Assembly: GCA_011391075.1 (NCBI GenBank)
Contig: JAABRF010000016.1
Location: 1 to 40,722 of the forward strand
DNA from: Flavobacteriia bacterium
Lineage (GTDB): Bacteria > Bacteroidota > Bacteroidia > Flavobacteriales > Flavobacteriaceae
Direction of reading: 5' to 3'
DNA length: 40,722 nt
In this document: piece after piece, positions 16,476-35,179 of the stretch
Numbering within the stretch: the stretch's first letter is position 1
Layout: each line of letters starts with the position of its first letter
The notes under the pieces: generated by a model
What the model was told of the DNA's origin: nothing
The model's input: the letters and a program-made list of their open reading frames with translations, nothing else
The model's database searches: none
Position numbers and translations under genes: made by a program

Positions 16476-17210
16476 TTACATAAAATTCTTTGCAATCCAA
16501 AAGATTCCTACTCCAATAGCTACCACACCACCCCAAAATCTAAGGTTTTTAAAGACATTGTGGTTGTGCTGATTTGGGTTTAATTTATGAAAATTTCCAA
16601 TAATTAAAGAAAAAAGAACCATAGCCGACACTGTTCCAATAGCGAAACCTATCAAATATTGACCGGTTTGCCATTTACTCTGAAAAGCAAGAGCAGGAAG
16701 CATTAAAAGAAAATGTGAAATTCCGGCAAAACCATGAACAATTCCAACACTGGTTGCGGTCCATAAGTTTTGATCTTTTTTCAAAGGTTGATGATGCGTA
16801 TGGTTGTGATTTTCGTCTTGATGGGTATGTATATGCACAAAATCTTGAGGTCCGCTGGTATGAATATGTGGGTGAATATGATGTTTATCGTGATCGGATT
16901 TCATGCGGTAAAAAGCCCAAATCCCTAGCCCAATTAAAATAACGCCTACGATTTGCTCACTATATTTGGAAATGGAATCAACAGGTATATAATCTTTGAA
17001 AAGAAAGAACAAAAATCCAATGAGTAACATACCTACCAAATGTCCTATTCCCCATACTGCCCCAATTTGCCAGTGATTCTTTTTACTGTCAAAGACTAAT
17101 GGTGTTACTGCGGCCAAATGGTCGGGACCTGTCCACACATGTAGCATGGATGCTATAATTCCCATGATGATGGGTATGTTTACTCCGGTAAATTCGTGTA
17201 GCGAAAGCAT
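16476..17210 (-). CDS. Nickel/cobalt permease-like membrane protein with His-rich loop
   Basis: A 244-residue polytopic protein with about six hydrophobic helices. The first helix region carries HVWTGPDH (24-31), a His...Asp-His motif resembling the NiCoT metal signature but one residue longer, as in UreH/HupE-related permeases. A second motif, HGFAGISH, lies near 158. Between them is a cytosolic or periplasmic loop dense in His (about 108-141: HDKHHIHPHIHTSG, HIHTHQDENHNHTHHQ). The gene lies between hypB and meaB, 44 bp after hypB, so nickel supply for the [NiFe] hydrogenases is the likely job. Transport direction and Ni versus Co specificity cannot be seen. Confidence 0.78.
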   Translation of the reverse strand: MLSLHEFTGVNIPIIMGIIASMLHVWTGPDHLAAVTPLVFDSKKNHWQIGAVWGIGHLVGMLLIGFLFFLFKDYIPVDSISKYSEQIVGVILIGLGIWAFYRMKSDHDKHHIHPHIHTSGPQDFVHIHTHQDENHNHTHHQPLKKDQNLWTATSVGIVHGFAGISHFLLMLPALAFQSKWQTGQYLIGFAIGTVSAMVLFSLIIGNFHKLNPNQHNHNVFKNLRFWGGVVAIGVGIFWIAKNFM

Positions 17211-17254: not shown

Positions 17255-18235
17255 CTATCGAGATTGTGCCTTTTTCAACCACTCATACCAATCTGTCATA
17301 CCAGCTCCGGTTGTAGCCGAGACTTCAAAGAAAATCAGATTGGGATTGACTCTACTGGCGTATTCTTTGGCTTTTTCAACTTTGAAGTTGACATAAGGCA
17401 ATAAATCAATCTTGTTGATGATGCAAACCTGAGATCCTGCAAACATGTCGGGATATTTGATTGGTTTGTCATCTCCTTCGGTTGTGCTGATTACTACAAC
17501 TCGGGTATTTTCTCCTAAATCAAATAAGGCGGGACAAACCAGATTTCCTACATTTTCAATGATTAAAACCGAGTCATTTTTGACATCCAGTTTTTTTACA
17601 GCATCATATATCATATCACTTTCTAGATGACAACCGGTGCCGGTATTGATTTGGATGACCGGTATTTGAACTGCATTTATTCTATCTGCATCGTTAAAAG
17701 TTTGTTGATCTCCTTCTATGACAAAGAAGTCTAGCTGCGATTTCATATCGGTTAAAGTGCGTTCTAGGAAAGTGGTTTTTCCGGATCCCGGCGAACTCAC
17801 CAAGTTGAGGGTAAAGATATTTTTAGCTTCAAAATAACCTCTGTTTCTAGCGGCACCTACGTCGTTGAATTGTAGAATGTTTTTTTCTACATCAATGGTG
17901 TGTTGTTGGTCATGCGAATGTCCATGTGAATGATCATGTGAATGCCCGTGATCATGGTGATGAATGTGGACAAAATCATGATGCGTATGTTCATGTGGAT
18001 GGGCGTGATCCTGAAAATCATGTGTATGCGCATGTCCGTGTTCATGCGTATGGGGAAAATCATGTTCGTGTGCATGTGTATGCCGATGTACATGTTCTAC
18101 GCCATCATGCGTATGAGGATGCTCATGATCATGTTCATGCGGATGCGCATGATGATTGGATTGATTGTGGGCATGTTCGCCCGGTTTTTGAATGGAGACG
18201 GTATTGCCCGTTCCGCAGCCACAGGTTCCACACAT
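17255..18235 (-). CDS. hypB: Hydrogenase nickel-incorporation GTPase HypB with large His-rich domain
   Basis: A 326-residue protein. The N-terminus MCGTCGCG carries the high-affinity nickel motif CxxCGC (Cys 2, 5, 7). Residues 21-112 form a His-rich segment with about 41 His, mostly in X-H dipeptides (DH, EH, TH, GH), able to store nickel. The GTPase follows: Walker A SSPGSGKTT (147-155), EGDQQTFNDADRI, the metal-site CH at 202-203 in NTGTGCHLE, and NKIDLLPY. HypB delivers nickel with HypA to the [NiFe] large subunit. It lies downstream of hoxH and its protease, upstream of a nickel-permease-like gene; hypA and hypF are elsewhere in the island. The His segment is long for HypB. Confidence 0.96.
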   Translation of the reverse strand: MCGTCGCGTGNTVSIQKPGEHAHNQSNHHAHPHEHDHEHPHTHDGVEHVHRHTHAHEHDFPHTHEHGHAHTHDFQDHAHPHEHTHHDFVHIHHHDHGHSHDHSHGHSHDQQHTIDVEKNILQFNDVGAARNRGYFEAKNIFTLNLVSSPGSGKTTFLERTLTDMKSQLDFFVIEGDQQTFNDADRINAVQIPVIQINTGTGCHLESDMIYDAVKKLDVKNDSVLIIENVGNLVCPALFDLGENTRVVVISTTEGDDKPIKYPDMFAGSQVCIINKIDLLPYVNFKVEKAKEYASRVNPNLIFFEVSATTGAGMTDWYEWLKKAQSR

Positions 18236-18583: not shown

Positions 18584-19039
18584 TTAAAAAGTTGTTACAA
18601 TGTTGTAAAAGTCTTGTTTGAAATAACGAAAAGCATTGTCTAAATTTTTCTGAGCAACTTGGGTTAGTCCTATGTTTAAGTCAAAAGCAATTCCAGATAT
18701 ACCTATCATATAGCATTCAGGATTTACATCATAAATAGTTTTTGCTAAATGTAATACTGATGCAGGGTTTAATTCGTGAGAGGTATAAGAATTTACATCT
18801 TTAGGATACAGTTTTTCAAAATTAAATCCATTGGGATGTTGGACCATATCGGCATCGACAAATAATATGGTATTGTAACGAGCAATCAATTCGGCATCTT
18901 CCACTTGTAATTGGTAACGGTATTCCAAATCGATATTTTCTAATAGTAATGATTCAATAGCATCCAAAAATGCCCATCCCAACCCATCATCTTGACGACC
19001 GGAATTGCCTATCCCAATAATTAAAGTTTCATGGTTCAT
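18584..19039 (-). CDS. hoxW: [NiFe] hydrogenase maturation endopeptidase (HoxW-like)
   Basis: A 151-residue protein of the HupD/HyaD/FrhD protease family. The N-terminal motif GIGNSGRQDDGLG contains metal ligand Asp 18; FVDAD (61-65) and His 88 in YTSHELNP give the other expected nickel-sensing ligands. These enzymes cut the C-terminal peptide from the large subunit after nickel insertion, the last maturation step. It lies 73 bp after hoxH on the same strand, so HoxH is the likely substrate. A second, quite different protease gene (39301) accompanies the membrane-bound enzyme, so each large subunit appears to have its own protease. Confidence 0.9.
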   Translation of the reverse strand: MNHETLIIGIGNSGRQDDGLGWAFLDAIESLLLENIDLEYRYQLQVEDAELIARYNTILFVDADMVQHPNGFNFEKLYPKDVNSYTSHELNPASVLHLAKTIYDVNPECYMIGISGIAFDLNIGLTQVAQKNLDNAFRYFKQDFYNIVTTF

Positions 19040-19112: not shown

Positions 19113-20564
19113 TTATTTTACTTTATAATCCAAAATTTCACCCTTTGAATCATACAAAGTCATTTCCATTGGCATTTGACCCATGGCGTGTGTAGCGCAA
19201 CTCAAGCAAGGATCGTACGCTCTGATGGCTACTTCTACTTGATTGAGCATGCCTTCGGTAATTTCAGGTCTGCCATCCATGACATTGTTGGCAACCCAAC
19301 GTACCGCTTGATTCATAGGTTCGTTGTTGTGGGTTGTGGAAACGATCAAATTGCAATGAGTAATTCGATCTTTGTCGTCCACTTCATATTCGTGAATCAA
19401 AGTACCTCGTGGCGCTTCAATAATACCTACACCTCTGTTTCTTCGGGTTCCTTTTCGGATCAAATCATTACTCATTAAATCGTGGTCATGTAATAAATTG
19501 CGCATCATTTCGGCACAATACAAAACTTCGATCAAACGTGCCCAATGGGTGTACATCGTCATATTATTTGTTTTGCCTTGCGTTGCAGCTTTAAAATCCT
19601 GACGTTCTTTTTCTGCCAAAGGTGTTTCTATGCCATCGCAAACATTAAGTCGAGCCAATGGACCTACTCGATTCCAACCTTTTTCTCTACCCAAATGTTT
19701 TAAGTATGGAAATTTGAGATAAGACCAACGTTCGACGCTTTCATAGAAATAATCGGCGTAATCATCGTTGTTGATGTCGTCTAATGTGATATTGCCTTCT
19801 GCATCGGTAGCTCTTAAAAATCCATCATAAAGTTCCAAAAATCCGGTTTTCTTATTGACCAAACCCAAATGTCCTGATGGGTAAGCAGCAAAAGAATCCA
19901 TGAAAACTTTGTTGTTTTCGTGATATGCTTTCATAAATTGAATGATTTCCAAAGACCATTCTATCATGGTATTGATATCGGGAATGTCTTTACCATCCAA
20001 AAAATAGGAAATCTCCTTGGCACTGATGTGTTTGTGAACTCCACCAGGAGAAGCCGAGATTCCGTGAATTTTCTTACCGGTAATCAATTTGATGATTTCC
20101 TGACCAAATTTACGCATCAAAATCCCTTTTTTGGCAATTTCGGGATATTCCATAGCTACCCCAACCACATTGCGTTTCAATGGATCGGCGTCGTATCCAA
20201 ATAATAAATCGGGTGCTGCCAAATAGAAAAAGTGCAAAGCATGGGATTGAAATACTTGTCCGAAATGTAAAAGTTTTCTGATTTTTTGTGCAGGAACCGA
20301 TAAATCTTCCGGGTTTAAACCAACGATTTGATCAATGGCTTTGGCAGCAGCCAAATGGTGACTCACCGGGCAAATGCCGCAAAGGCGCTGAACCATAACA
20401 GGTGCTTCCCAATAGGGGTGACCTTGTATAAAGCGTTCAAAACCTCTGAATTCCACAATATGGAAAAAAGCGTCTTTTACTTTATTATTGTCGTCTAAAT
20501 GGATGGTAACTTTGCCGTGTCCTTCCACGCGGGTTACAGGATCTATGACTATTTTTTGTGACAT
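19113..20564 (-). CDS. hoxH: NAD-linked [NiFe] hydrogenase large subunit HoxH
   Basis: A 483-residue group 3d-type large subunit. The N-terminal nickel motif RLCGICPVSHH gives Cys 62 and Cys 65, and the C-terminal motif DPCLSCATH gives Cys 453 and Cys 456. It is followed by a 24-residue extension (AMGQMPMEM...) that the protease should remove after His 459. The start MSQKIVIDPVTRVEGHGKV is the standard N-terminus. HoxH carries the Ni-Fe(CN)2CO site of the cytoplasmic bidirectional hydrogenase and pairs with the HoxY part of the fused upstream protein. It sits in order hoxF-hoxUY-hoxH-hoxW. A 112-bp spacer with an inverted repeat precedes it. Confidence 0.96.
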   Translation of the reverse strand: MSQKIVIDPVTRVEGHGKVTIHLDDNNKVKDAFFHIVEFRGFERFIQGHPYWEAPVMVQRLCGICPVSHHLAAAKAIDQIVGLNPEDLSVPAQKIRKLLHFGQVFQSHALHFFYLAAPDLLFGYDADPLKRNVVGVAMEYPEIAKKGILMRKFGQEIIKLITGKKIHGISASPGGVHKHISAKEISYFLDGKDIPDINTMIEWSLEIIQFMKAYHENNKVFMDSFAAYPSGHLGLVNKKTGFLELYDGFLRATDAEGNITLDDINNDDYADYFYESVERWSYLKFPYLKHLGREKGWNRVGPLARLNVCDGIETPLAEKERQDFKAATQGKTNNMTMYTHWARLIEVLYCAEMMRNLLHDHDLMSNDLIRKGTRRNRGVGIIEAPRGTLIHEYEVDDKDRITHCNLIVSTTHNNEPMNQAVRWVANNVMDGRPEITEGMLNQVEVAIRAYDPCLSCATHAMGQMPMEMTLYDSKGEILDYKVK

Positions 20565-20676: not shown

Positions 20677-21951
20677 TTAATCGTATTTAAATTCATCATG
20701 TGCAATGGAAAATTCTTCTCCTAATAAGATACTCTTTACTACTTTCCAAATGTGTTGCGCATTGGGCGGACAACCCGGAATGTAATAATCAATTTTCACG
20801 ATTTCATTACACGGATATACATTGTTCAATAATTTGGGAATGTCTGGATGACCCGGAATGATATTGGCTCCCAATTCGCTGGTTGTACTGTTGAGATATG
20901 CTTCTTCCAAACATTCTTCCAAGGGTACAAAATTTCGCATGGCGGGAATTCCACCCATAATGGCACATTCTCCAAAGCTGATCAATATGTCACATTTTTT
21001 ACGGAATTCTTTCAATACGTGAATGTTTTCTGAATTGGCGCAACCGCCTTCTATCAAACCTACGTGACATTGTTTGCTAAAATTCTTAATATCTGTCAAT
21101 GGTGATTTGTTAAACTCTACTACTTCCAACATGTCTAGTATTTCCAAATCGATATCGAGTAAAGACATATGGCATCCGAAACATCCTGCTAAAGAAGTCG
21201 TTGCCACGATAAATTTTTCATTAGGTTCTTTAAATACTCCGGGACCTTGAATCACTGGTGATTTTTGTTTGCCGAATATGTCGTATTTTCTCTCTCCAAA
21301 AGGCTCTTCTTGAATCATACCTTTGATGAGGATTGCGCCAACCGGACACAAGTTCATGGCTTTCATGGCTTCGCTTTCGGTCAATTTTTCCTCTTGCTCG
21401 TAATCAATTTGTACATGGGTTTTGACACCTCTGTTGACAAATGAAAAGACACTTTGACCATCTTTTGTTTTGACTTGTTCGACGCAACGTTTGCACAAAA
21501 TACATCTGTTGGATTCCATAATCATCCTTTTGGGATTGAAATCCACTAGTTTATTGCTAAACACATGTGAATAACGGGTAACGGTTATACCCATATCATA
21601 ACCCAAATTTTGCATGTCGCATTTACCACTTTTCTCACATGAAGGGCAAAAGTGATTGCCTTCTGCATACAGCATTTCGATGATGGCTTTGCGGTTATCC
21701 AACAATTCGGGTGTATTGATTTCGATTTCCATTCCGTCGGTTACTTTGGTTGTACAACCCGTAGTTTGTCGGCCATTGAGATTGACTGTACAAATACGGC
21801 AAGTAGCCAATGGGTGCATATCTCTAAAGTAACACAAGGTTGGAATAAATATTCCATTTTCTTTGGCAACATCAACGAGATTTCTCCCTTCAAATGTTTT
21901 GATGTTTTTGCCATCTATGTTGATGGTGATGGGCTTATTCATAATTGGCAT
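20677..21951 (-). CDS. hoxUY: Fused HoxU (diaphorase Fe-S subunit) - HoxY (hydrogenase small subunit)
   Basis: A 424-residue protein joining two normally separate subunits. Residues 1-212 match HoxU/NuoG N-terminus: [2Fe-2S] ligands Cys 40, 51, 54, 66; His 100 with Cys 102, 105, 111; and a [4Fe-4S] set at Cys 150, 153, 156, 202. Residues 245-424 match HoxY: SLAGCFGCHMSLLD (Cys 257, 260), FGECAIMGG (Cys 329) and PGCPP (Cys 394), the proximal [4Fe-4S] ligands. The linker is about 30 residues with no internal stop or frameshift sign. The fusion would tie the diaphorase electron wire to the hydrogenase half of the complex. Its 5' end overlaps hoxF by 17 bp from ATG 21951; Met 4 (21942) is an alternative start. 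Confidence 0.92.
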   Translation of the reverse strand: MPIMNKPITINIDGKNIKTFEGRNLVDVAKENGIFIPTLCYFRDMHPLATCRICTVNLNGRQTTGCTTKVTDGMEIEINTPELLDNRKAIIEMLYAEGNHFCPSCEKSGKCDMQNLGYDMGITVTRYSHVFSNKLVDFNPKRMIMESNRCILCKRCVEQVKTKDGQSVFSFVNRGVKTHVQIDYEQEEKLTESEAMKAMNLCPVGAILIKGMIQEEPFGERKYDIFGKQKSPVIQGPGVFKEPNEKFIVATTSLAGCFGCHMSLLDIDLEILDMLEVVEFNKSPLTDIKNFSKQCHVGLIEGGCANSENIHVLKEFRKKCDILISFGECAIMGGIPAMRNFVPLEECLEEAYLNSTTSELGANIIPGHPDIPKLLNNVYPCNEIVKIDYYIPGCPPNAQHIWKVVKSILLGEEFSIAHDEFKYD

Positions 21952-23746
21952 TTATTTCTTTGATGATACGGTCGTATTCGGCAGTGGCATTTGCCATATT
22001 GAAAGCCGGATTGTAATCGGAGTTTTCCTCCAAAGCTTTGTCAAAAACATCGGGGAATTTGGCAATGGCTTGCAATAGTGAGTTGTTGGACATTTGTCCT
22101 AAGCCACATCTGCTCGAAGTACGAATGATGTTACTCCATGATTTGATATCTTCCAAATCATACTTTTCTCCATGACCGTTGATGATTTTTTGAAGTTTTT
22201 TGTTGAGTAAAAAATTACCGGTACGGCAAGGTACACATATACCGCAAGATTCGGCAACAAAAAAGTCGGAGAATGATTTGATGATATGTAAAATGTCGCG
22301 GGTTTCATTGAAAATCATCACCGATCCACCACAAGTAATGTCTTCACCACTGATGACTCGGTCGTATTCGTTATCGGCTAAGAAGTCTCTAGATTTTCTT
22401 GGACTGGAACGCAAAGTTTTGCTTTCATTGGGCGAAATAGACAAACAATCTCCAGATGGACCACTGAATTGAACAATTTTAGGTTTTTCAACACCGGTTA
22501 ATTTTAAGAATTCGCTGAATTTCATGCCCCATTCTATTTCATAAATACCTTTGTTGGGACAATCTCCGGATACACTCAATATTTTGGTTCCGGGAGTTTT
22601 GGTTGTCCCCAGTTTCAACCAATTTTCCACACCCATTTCAAAAATGCGTGGCACAGTAGCCAAAGTCTCTACATTATTTACAACGGTTGGTTTGCCTTTG
22701 TAGCCTTTTTGAACAGGAAAATATTCTTTAGTTCCGGGTTCGCCGCGTTTGCCTTCCATAGAATTTAACATGGCAGTTTCTTCTCCACATACATAAGCTC
22801 CGGCCCCAAGATGAACATAAATATCAAAATCAAACGGCTGCATAGCAGGAATGTTTTTTCCTAAATAACCCTGAGCGCGATATTTATCTAATAAGTTTTC
22901 TAAATCTTCTTTGAGATACATGTATTCGGCTCTCAAATAAATGGCACCTTGACTAGCTCCTACGGCATAGGCTGCAAAAATCATCCCTTCGATAACGAGT
23001 TCAGGATGCTCTTGTAAGAGCACGCGATCCTTAAATGTTCCGGGTTCACCTTCATCGGCATTACAAACGATGTATTTGATATCGGATTCGTATTGACGAC
23101 AAAACTGCCACTTTAATCCTGTAGGAAAGAATGCACCTCCACGTCCGGCTAATTTGGATTGTTTGACCATGTCAATAATCTGGTCGGGTGGGTATTCTTC
23201 CAATTTTTTTAAAGCTGTAAACCGGGAATAAGGCTTGAAAAATACAGTTCGTTCAGCTGAAGGTGTATATTGAATCTTGCTTTTGGGAATGTCACAAATT
23301 TCAGAAGGATTCTTTCCTGATTTGATTTGATTGATGATGTCAAACACTTTTTGGCGGTTGAGATGCGTAAAAGGTTTGAAATTAATCAAACAAGACGGCT
23401 CTTGATCACTGAGTCCTATACAAGGAGTATCAAATAAACCAAACATTTTATCAGGCGTAACTTTCCCCATGCCGACCCCTATGGCGTCTTCAAAAGCTTG
23501 CCTGATTTCATCCCTTCCTGAATATTCGGAAACAATGGAACTGTTGAGATAAATGGTGTATTTCCCTACATCCTTGAAATGATAGAAATGATAAAAACTG
23601 ATCACACCTTCCAATTCTGTTTTGGAGATATCAAAAACTTGTGAAATTTTTGTAATATCCTCAGGTTCAATACATCTTTTTTTTCTTTGAATGTCCCATA
23701 GTACAGACATCAAATGACTTCGATCGGGAATCTTAGATTGCAACAT
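21935..23746 (-). CDS. hoxF: NAD(P)-reducing hydrogenase diaphorase subunit HoxF (NuoE-NuoF fusion)
   Basis: A 603-residue protein. Residues about 1-150 form a NuoE-like thioredoxin-fold domain. The NuoF part follows with GRGGAFFPTGLKW (201-213) for FMN, CNADEGEPGTFKDR (228-241), GAGAYVCGEETA (314-325), and [4Fe-4S] ligands Cys 501, 504, 507 (ESCGICVPCRTG) and 547. It binds FMN and NAD(H) and passes electrons to HoxU. In the NuoE domain the first Cys pair is absent (NSSIVSEYSG, 68-77) and the second pair retains only Cys 109 (CIGLS), so that [2Fe-2S] cluster is probably missing. It is the first gene of the minus-strand operon, with an operator-promoter at 23772-23816. Confidence 0.95.
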   Translation of the reverse strand: MLQSKIPDRSHLMSVLWDIQRKKRCIEPEDITKISQVFDISKTELEGVISFYHFYHFKDVGKYTIYLNSSIVSEYSGRDEIRQAFEDAIGVGMGKVTPDKMFGLFDTPCIGLSDQEPSCLINFKPFTHLNRQKVFDIINQIKSGKNPSEICDIPKSKIQYTPSAERTVFFKPYSRFTALKKLEEYPPDQIIDMVKQSKLAGRGGAFFPTGLKWQFCRQYESDIKYIVCNADEGEPGTFKDRVLLQEHPELVIEGMIFAAYAVGASQGAIYLRAEYMYLKEDLENLLDKYRAQGYLGKNIPAMQPFDFDIYVHLGAGAYVCGEETAMLNSMEGKRGEPGTKEYFPVQKGYKGKPTVVNNVETLATVPRIFEMGVENWLKLGTTKTPGTKILSVSGDCPNKGIYEIEWGMKFSEFLKLTGVEKPKIVQFSGPSGDCLSISPNESKTLRSSPRKSRDFLADNEYDRVISGEDITCGGSVMIFNETRDILHIIKSFSDFFVAESCGICVPCRTGNFLLNKKLQKIINGHGEKYDLEDIKSWSNIIRTSSRCGLGQMSNNSLLQAIAKFPDVFDKALEENSDYNPAFNMANATAEYDRIIKEINANYE

Positions 23747-34837: not shown

Positions 34838-35179
34838 TTAAAACGTATCCAAACTCTTCACCCGCAATTCTTTTCCCTGCAAAATACTCTTTAAAAAACT
34901 ACCGCATTTCGGGCAGTTGTCGTGAATGAAATGGATGTCATAGAGATGATCACAATCAGAACAGCGGGCTTTTGCCTGTATATTGTGAATTTTCCTTTCA
35001 GCCTTTTCCAAAACACTTCCTGCAACAGCCGCTTGCCAAGCAAAATCCAAAGCTTCCCATTCCACTCCTGACAGATTTCCTATTTCCAAATCAATAGCAG
35101 CAAAAGCATCCACGCCGGCTTTCACAGCTTCTGTTTCCGCAATCTTAACAATTCCCAAGACGATAGACATTTCGTGCAT
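34838..35179 (-). CDS. hypA: Hydrogenase nickel metallochaperone HypA
   Basis: A 113-residue protein starting MHEMSIV, whose His 2 is the conserved nickel ligand; this fixes the start at 35179. The C-terminal zinc site is formed by CSDC (about 73-76) and CPKC (about 89-92). HypA receives nickel from HypB and delivers it to the [NiFe] large subunit. It is a single gene divergent from the membrane-bound hydrogenase operon, separate from hypB (17255) and hypF (40012). It probably serves both HoxH and the membrane-bound enzyme. Confidence 0.95.
   Translation of the reverse strand: MHEMSIVLGIVKIAETEAVKAGVDAFAAIDLEIGNLSGVEWEALDFAWQAAVAGSVLEKAERKIHNIQAKARCSDCDHLYDIHFIHDNCPKCGSFLKSILQGKELRVKSLDTF

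Follow-up and report, generated by a model that had tools for sequence, protein, structure and literature searches.

In the established picture of soluble NAD-linked hydrogenases, which draws on complex I as well, electrons run between NADH and FMN in HoxF, the HoxU clusters, the HoxY cluster, and the [NiFe] site of HoxH. The locus described here raises the question of whether HoxU and HoxY have become a single protein, how that came about, and what it does for the enzyme. It lies in a stretch of flavobacterial DNA of 40,722 nucleotides, which was analyzed as a whole and is called the window. The gene very probably encodes a fused subunit of a soluble NAD(H)-linked [NiFe] hydrogenase that descends from a single ancestral fusion and in which a tether holds the modules together.

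On the plus strand, positions 20677-21951 are full of stops; the open frame is on the minus strand and runs from 21951 to 20677. The initial annotation proposed an uninterrupted frame of 424 residues with the full ligand sets of HoxU and HoxY, and the frame, the Pfam domains, and the ligand columns all confirm this. Four Pfam domains, each over its cut-off, follow one another along the protein: Fer2_4 (residues 6-80), NADH-G_4Fe-4S_3 (87-125), Fer4_Nqo3 (145-207), and Oxidored_q6 (257-406). The NCBI HoxU model matches residues 8-216 at 9e-52, with 175.8 bits, which is under the model cut-off of 333. Among PDB sequences, residues 9-224 match chain 5xf9_B (2.8e-36), and the best match of the HoxY half (residues 243-424) is the HoxY chain 5xf9_C (4.5e-49). 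Many relatives align from residue 3 or 4 onward, and either of two methionines may be the translation start (Table 1).

All 15 cysteine ligands are present, completing the sets of both halves. An alignment of fused and split rows places C40/51/54/66, C102/105/111, and C150/153/156/202 in the HoxU half and C257/260/329/394, four cysteines for one [4Fe-4S] cluster, in the HoxY half. None of these columns varies, either in the 45 aligned fused rows or in the 17 split rows of the soluble hydrogenase type, and H100 is invariant in a 41-row alignment. Their assignment as cluster ligands follows what is established for HoxU/NuoG and HoxY.

The setting proposed for the gene, a HoxFUYH-type [NiFe] hydrogenase, was found as well: the operon reads hoxF-hoxUY-hoxH-protease-hypB, followed by a membrane protein gene. 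HoxF has the FMN/NAD domain (Complex1_51K, 3.4e-44) and the C-terminal [4Fe-4S] domain (NADH_4Fe-4S, 6.2e-22), with C501/504/507/547 kept in 45/45 fused rows. Its residues 8-142 match 2Fe-2S_thioredx, so a HoxE-like domain is fused onto HoxF and there is no separate HoxE. This domain holds at most three cysteines in all 45 fused rows, C109 being the sole one common to all, too few for a four-cysteine [2Fe-2S] cluster. The Pfam search found no Fer4-family domain in HoxF (21935-23746). In HoxH, C62/C65 are present in 43/43 rows and C453/C456 in 41/43, with gaps there in the other two. The His-rich stretch of HypB is about 100 residues long and likely binds nickel; the adjoining membrane protein is possibly a nickel transporter. 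The gene for hypA directly precedes hoxF in 20 of 38 fused loci.

Table 1. Features of the hox locus in the window (positions are those of the window).
Feature	Position	Strand	Remarks
hoxUY (fused HoxU-HoxY)	20677..21951	minus	424 aa, start may be M1 or M4
HoxU half	21280..21951	minus	approximately residues 1-224; [2Fe-2S] + His/Cys3 [4Fe-4S] + [4Fe-4S]; from Pfam, ligand columns, structure match
Tether	21217..21279	minus	residues 225-245; sequence variable, length near-constant, model confidence low at 227-232
HoxY half	20680..21216	minus	residues 246-424; proximal [4Fe-4S]; from Oxidored_q6, 5xf9_C match, ligands
hoxF (HoxE-like + NuoF-like)	21935..23746	minus	603 aa; 17-base overlap with hoxUY
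hoxH, [NiFe] large subunit	19113..20564	minus	two Cys-x2-Cys motifs, C62/C65 and C453/C456
Hydrogenase maturation protease (HoxW-like)	18584..19039	minus	TIGR00072 over cut-off; no Pfam match
hypB	17255..18235	minus	N-terminus very His-rich
Membrane protein adjoining hypB	16476..17210	minus	DsbD_2 sole match; same order in L024/L118
hypA	34838..35179	minus	in the window, [FeFe] cluster stands between hypA and hoxF

The operon is part of an island (16476-40722) with three hydrogenases: the soluble [NiFe] Hox enzyme, an NADH-linked [FeFe] HydABC with the maturases HydG/F/E, and a group 1 type [NiFe] enzyme with a cytochrome b. HypA, HypB, and HypF are also encoded there. Group 1 genes were seen in the fetched stretch of 16 fused loci besides the window, and among the 38 fused loci, only the window and L024/L118, which belong to its genus, have [FeFe] maturase genes beside hoxF.

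The window enzyme has the HoxH motifs, the four HoxY cysteines, the NuoG-type clusters of HoxU, and the FMN/NAD and [4Fe-4S] domains of HoxF, all features of HoxFUYH; the one it lacks is HoxU and HoxY as separate subunits. With these in one frame, it is placed as a variant of HoxFUYH, the NAD(H)-linked soluble [NiFe] hydrogenase that we take to be group 3d. The initial annotation held that the two subunits are separate in described enzymes, and they do stand apart in Cupriavidus (Ralstonia) necator, Lichenicola, Acaryochloris, and 13/13 acidobacterial split-type loci (L146-L158).

The closest described relative is the soluble hydrogenase of C. necator H16 (HoxFUYH + HoxI2; plasmid pHG1, locus L102), whose HoxU and HoxY are 47% identical to the window protein over 96% of its length. 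Both enzymes have HoxE fused to HoxF, the order hoxF-U-Y-H-protease, and too few cysteines in the HoxE-like part (two in C. necator), but the C. necator hoxU and hoxY are separate genes with a 4-base overlap. In the available part of PMC3189943, the C. necator HoxFU is stated to have no analogue of complex I cluster N1a, with which the cysteine counts of HoxF agree. The acidobacterial split operons share gene order and ligands with the window, and most of their rows share the HoxU tail P-x-G-x-R with the fused type; they differ in that HoxU and HoxY are unfused. Structure 5XF9, which we take to be the NAD-reducing hydrogenase of Hydrogenophilus thermoluteolus, matches both halves structurally, but with HoxU (chain B) and HoxY (chain C) as separate chains. 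The cyanobacterial-type HoxEFUYH has a separate HoxE, unlike the window enzyme. The C. necator hox operon also comes with a gene for a cNMP-binding protein, which we take to be HoxI; a search for it in eight fused genomes gave only weak matches in seven (best E 2e-8), to frames of 204-651 aa outside the hox locus.

An assembly or sequencing error that deleted a stop could produce such a frame, and the window does come from a metagenome-assembled genome (MAG) in 103 contigs that is 68% complete. This origin is ruled out, its probability being negligible, because the same frame recurs in unrelated assemblies and in isolates. All 30 loci from named genomes have a single frame through both halves, with carriers that include the isolates Winogradskyella alexanderae, W. 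vincentii, Lentiprolixibacter aurantiacus, and Aureitalea sp. That scan searched with patterns taken from the fused protein, including one from the tether, and so favors fused relatives; the family and phylum genome samples are free of this bias. In Flavobacteriaceae, 21 of 397 genomes match at E 1e-30 or better, and 23/23 matches are a single frame and none is split, with one ending at a contig end. A frameshift or stop in the joint had been looked for, and none appears: the frame is intact across relatives.

Across Bacteroidota, 33 of 395 sampled genomes match and seven are fused: two from the window's family, two from another family of its class, and three from two families outside the class, so the fusion is present in three Bacteroidota families besides the window's. 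In the other matching genomes HoxU and HoxY are apart or the HoxU-like part lies within longer proteins. The fusion is also found in one MAG of Acidobacteriota (G795, locus L026). This genome was the chosen center of the acidobacterial sample, so its fused copy is no independent find there, and none of the 246 others is fused. Phyla beyond Bacteroidota and Acidobacteriota were sampled via plasmids: 341 records match, four of them covering at least 80%, and all four have separate genes by annotation. The fusion is real, old, and conserved, and belongs to a Bacteroidota branch made up mostly of Flavobacteriaceae.

The hox operon is patchy within this branch, given that G002, an 84% complete genome of the window's genus, lacks any match to hoxUY. 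A search of the window's own genome with the hoxUY protein matches only hoxUY itself and HydA. Two genomes that are 100% complete, G169 (one contig) and G391, have the fused gene as their sole Oxidored_q6 match, and the fused protein must therefore do the work of HoxY there. Four of eight fused genomes checked hold further Oxidored_q6 frames of 207-223 aa with a short match of 333-336 bases, which are probably NuoB rather than HoxY.

Some carriers have more than one hox set. Tandem operons are found in L046 (5991-10518), L053 (5994-10535), L044 (5997-13267), and L112 (2711-9228). Both Winogradskyella isolates have hoxF-hoxUY without hoxH and, after it, another hoxF-hoxUY-hoxH set that is more distant; two hox sets are present in Seonamhaeicola, and G294 has two consecutive hoxF genes.

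The origin of the fusion was followed on a concatenated alignment of HoxF, HoxU, HoxY, and HoxH that excluded the tether columns. In a 65-row tree, all 45 fused rows form one clade (support 100) with one change of state and no return to the split state. A mixture-model tree of 31 rows chosen from these 65 places 20/20 fused rows in one clade (100/100), which is present in 100% of 200 bootstrap trees. Left out were loci whose place was already taken by a retained one (L024, L118, L054, L055, and L105 among others), partial operons (L028, L034, L045_b, L112_a, and L117), and, to save rows, the fused loci L056 and L058; also absent are 20 of the 34 matching acidobacterial genomes and, apart from G530, G543, and G647, the split matches of the phylum sample. 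Cyanobacterial-type HoxEFUYH operons (L104, L113, and L116) are the outgroup. On both trees the sister of the fused clade is the split C. necator hydrogenase, which sits on a long branch, making the exact sister position less sure. Most simply, a single ancestral gene fusion would suffice for all fused rows. Repeated fusions are needed by neither tree, but since all neighbors are fused, several early ones would also be compatible.

How such a fusion could arise is illustrated in Acidobacteriota, where 34 of 247 genomes match and in six of these a single stop separates hoxU from hoxY within one frame (L146-L151). From the stop to the next ATG there are 9-12 bases, and reading through would give a joint of 22 codons in five loci and 27 in L151, next to 23-26 in the fused clade. 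These in-frame neighbors show that the loss of one stop is enough for fusion. They are not ancestors of the fused clade. The same arrangement is found in G530, at 34% identity and in an operon type with separate HoxE.

The fused operon of G795 (L026, 4166-9497), in a MAG of 59% G+C, is the nearest neighbor of the window version on both trees. Its contig has a G+C of 0.57-0.59, three other contigs of the MAG have 0.59-0.60, and hoxUY GC3 is 0.86 against 0.38 in the window's hoxUY. Contamination was considered as the source and rejected on these G+C and GC3 values, with Nuo-like proteins, recognized by eye, standing near the operon. It is because of composition alone that transfer is preferred over contamination. 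The simplest reading is a probable transfer out of Bacteroidota, with the composition having since adapted.

The joint between the halves is held in length and free in sequence. The tether is 23-26 residues long in 45/45 fused rows and 24 in 30 of them. Over 131 pairs of more than 80% identity, the tether has a pN/pS of 0.48, against 0.12 for the HoxU half and 0.08 for the HoxY half; because synonymous sites are saturated in this comparison, only this ratio is given. Frame and spacing are thus kept while residues are loose, as expected of a flexible tether. An AlphaFold2 model from 103 rows (mean pLDDT 81.7, pTM 0.74) has stretches under pLDDT 50 only at 227-232, in the tether, and at 422-424; the first model, from 41 fused rows, was poor (pLDDT 64.1, pTM 0.42). 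VIA-align matches the HoxU half to 5xf9_F (Z 19.5, 214 residues, 2.8 Å), and the HoxY half matches the fold of 7t2r_E (Z 18.7, 176 residues, 3.0 Å). Among the 50 matches listed in the per-chain fold search, alignments of more than 360 columns have an rmsd of 17-23, and among the 50 listed in a second search each covers one half only; such per-chain searches speak to the halves, the relative placing of these against HoxU and HoxY in 5XF9 being outside their scope.

In the proposed working of the enzyme, NADH/NAD+ would react at the FMN in HoxF, and electrons would pass from the HoxF [4Fe-4S] through the clusters of the HoxU half, cross the junction to reach the HoxY cluster, and arrive at the [NiFe] site of HoxH, a path that the fusion would leave unchanged. 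About 24 flexible residues would tether the diaphorase module to the hydrogenase module, which would fix a 1:1 stoichiometry, keep the two from separating, and in this way may stabilize the enzyme. HoxUY would remain uncleaved in the cell and the mature enzyme would have three chains. The enzyme would be expected to turn over H2 in the ordinary NAD(H)-linked way, probably in the direction of fermentative H2 production or H2 recycling.

Two readings would make the enzyme something other than this. The chain could be cleaved at the tether, or an additional HoxY could be started internally, giving an ordinary four-subunit enzyme. The variable tether and its low model confidence suit such a reading, as do GTG/TTG codons in or after the tether in several rows, among them a GTG 8 codons ahead of the first HoxY cysteine in 8/45 rows, window included. 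It is nonetheless unlikely: no start codon is conserved in position ahead of that cysteine in the 45 fused rows, an ATG lies within 30 codons upstream in one row and at 32-33 codons in four more, and the next ATG in all rows stands after the first two HoxY cysteines. The held tether length is also not expected of a mere cleavage site. The good match of the halves to 7T2R, in which the HoxU-like part is in chain A and the HoxY-like part is chain E, raises the prospect of an electron-bifurcating [NiFe] hydrogenase of the HydABCSL type. In HydABCSL these are separate chains and chain A has 692 aa, and the NuoF-like subunit bears a C-terminal ferredoxin domain. In the HydB-like protein of the window's own [FeFe] cluster a Fer4 follows NADH_4Fe-4S; HoxF here has none in that place, the HoxU half does not extend into any further HydA-like part, and the sister on the trees is C. 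necator. A bifurcating enzyme is thus very improbable and is rejected for want of the ferredoxin domain in HoxF.

A closer contest concerns the benefit alone. The fusion may be real and neutral, a stop having been lost between neighbors already joined in a complex, with the same anatomy and no functional gain; this is a serious contender, if somewhat short of an even chance. The acidobacterial genes one stop apart, with their read-through joints of nearly the right length, speak for it. So does the statement in the available part of PMC3189943 that the C. necator enzyme stays together unfused, by which stabilization is not obviously needed. Against it stand the lack of reversion in 45 fused rows, across several families and a probable transfer between phyla, and the held length of the tether, but neither shows a benefit by itself. 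The same part of PMC3189943 describes the Rhodococcus opacus enzyme as readily dissociating into two moieties and that of R. eutropha as staying together. The junction that separates in R. opacus, HoxFU/HoxYH, is the one that the fusion bridges. A further-reaching proposal, on balance doubtful, is that the three-chain enzyme was selected for a permanent bond between the NAD and H2 modules, surviving the swings of salt, oxygen, and metals in coastal sediment that split others.

What is described here is a HoxU-HoxY fusion across a whole clade, in an enzyme type that is otherwise well known. No description of it was found among the matches listed in the open-access literature (titles and abstracts), nor is it mentioned in the available parts of PMC12809855 and PMC2974642. 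The fused gene is nonetheless common in the sequence collections of the clade, where it can be overlooked or misnamed if hoxU and hoxY are sought separately. Soluble hydrogenases find use in producing NADH from H2, and the dissociation of the modules is known in one of them, that of R. opacus (PMC3189943, available part). A junction that nature has fused, and that a whole clade has kept, shows at which site a tether can sit and the length it requires. If selection for a permanent bond is true, the fused enzyme would be a natural template for a sturdier H2-driven NADH catalyst. According to the available part of PMC8857189, Flavobacteriaceae that carry group 3 [NiFe] hydrogenases are facultative fermenters of coastal sediments, and the fused form may be the enzyme at work in such bacteria.
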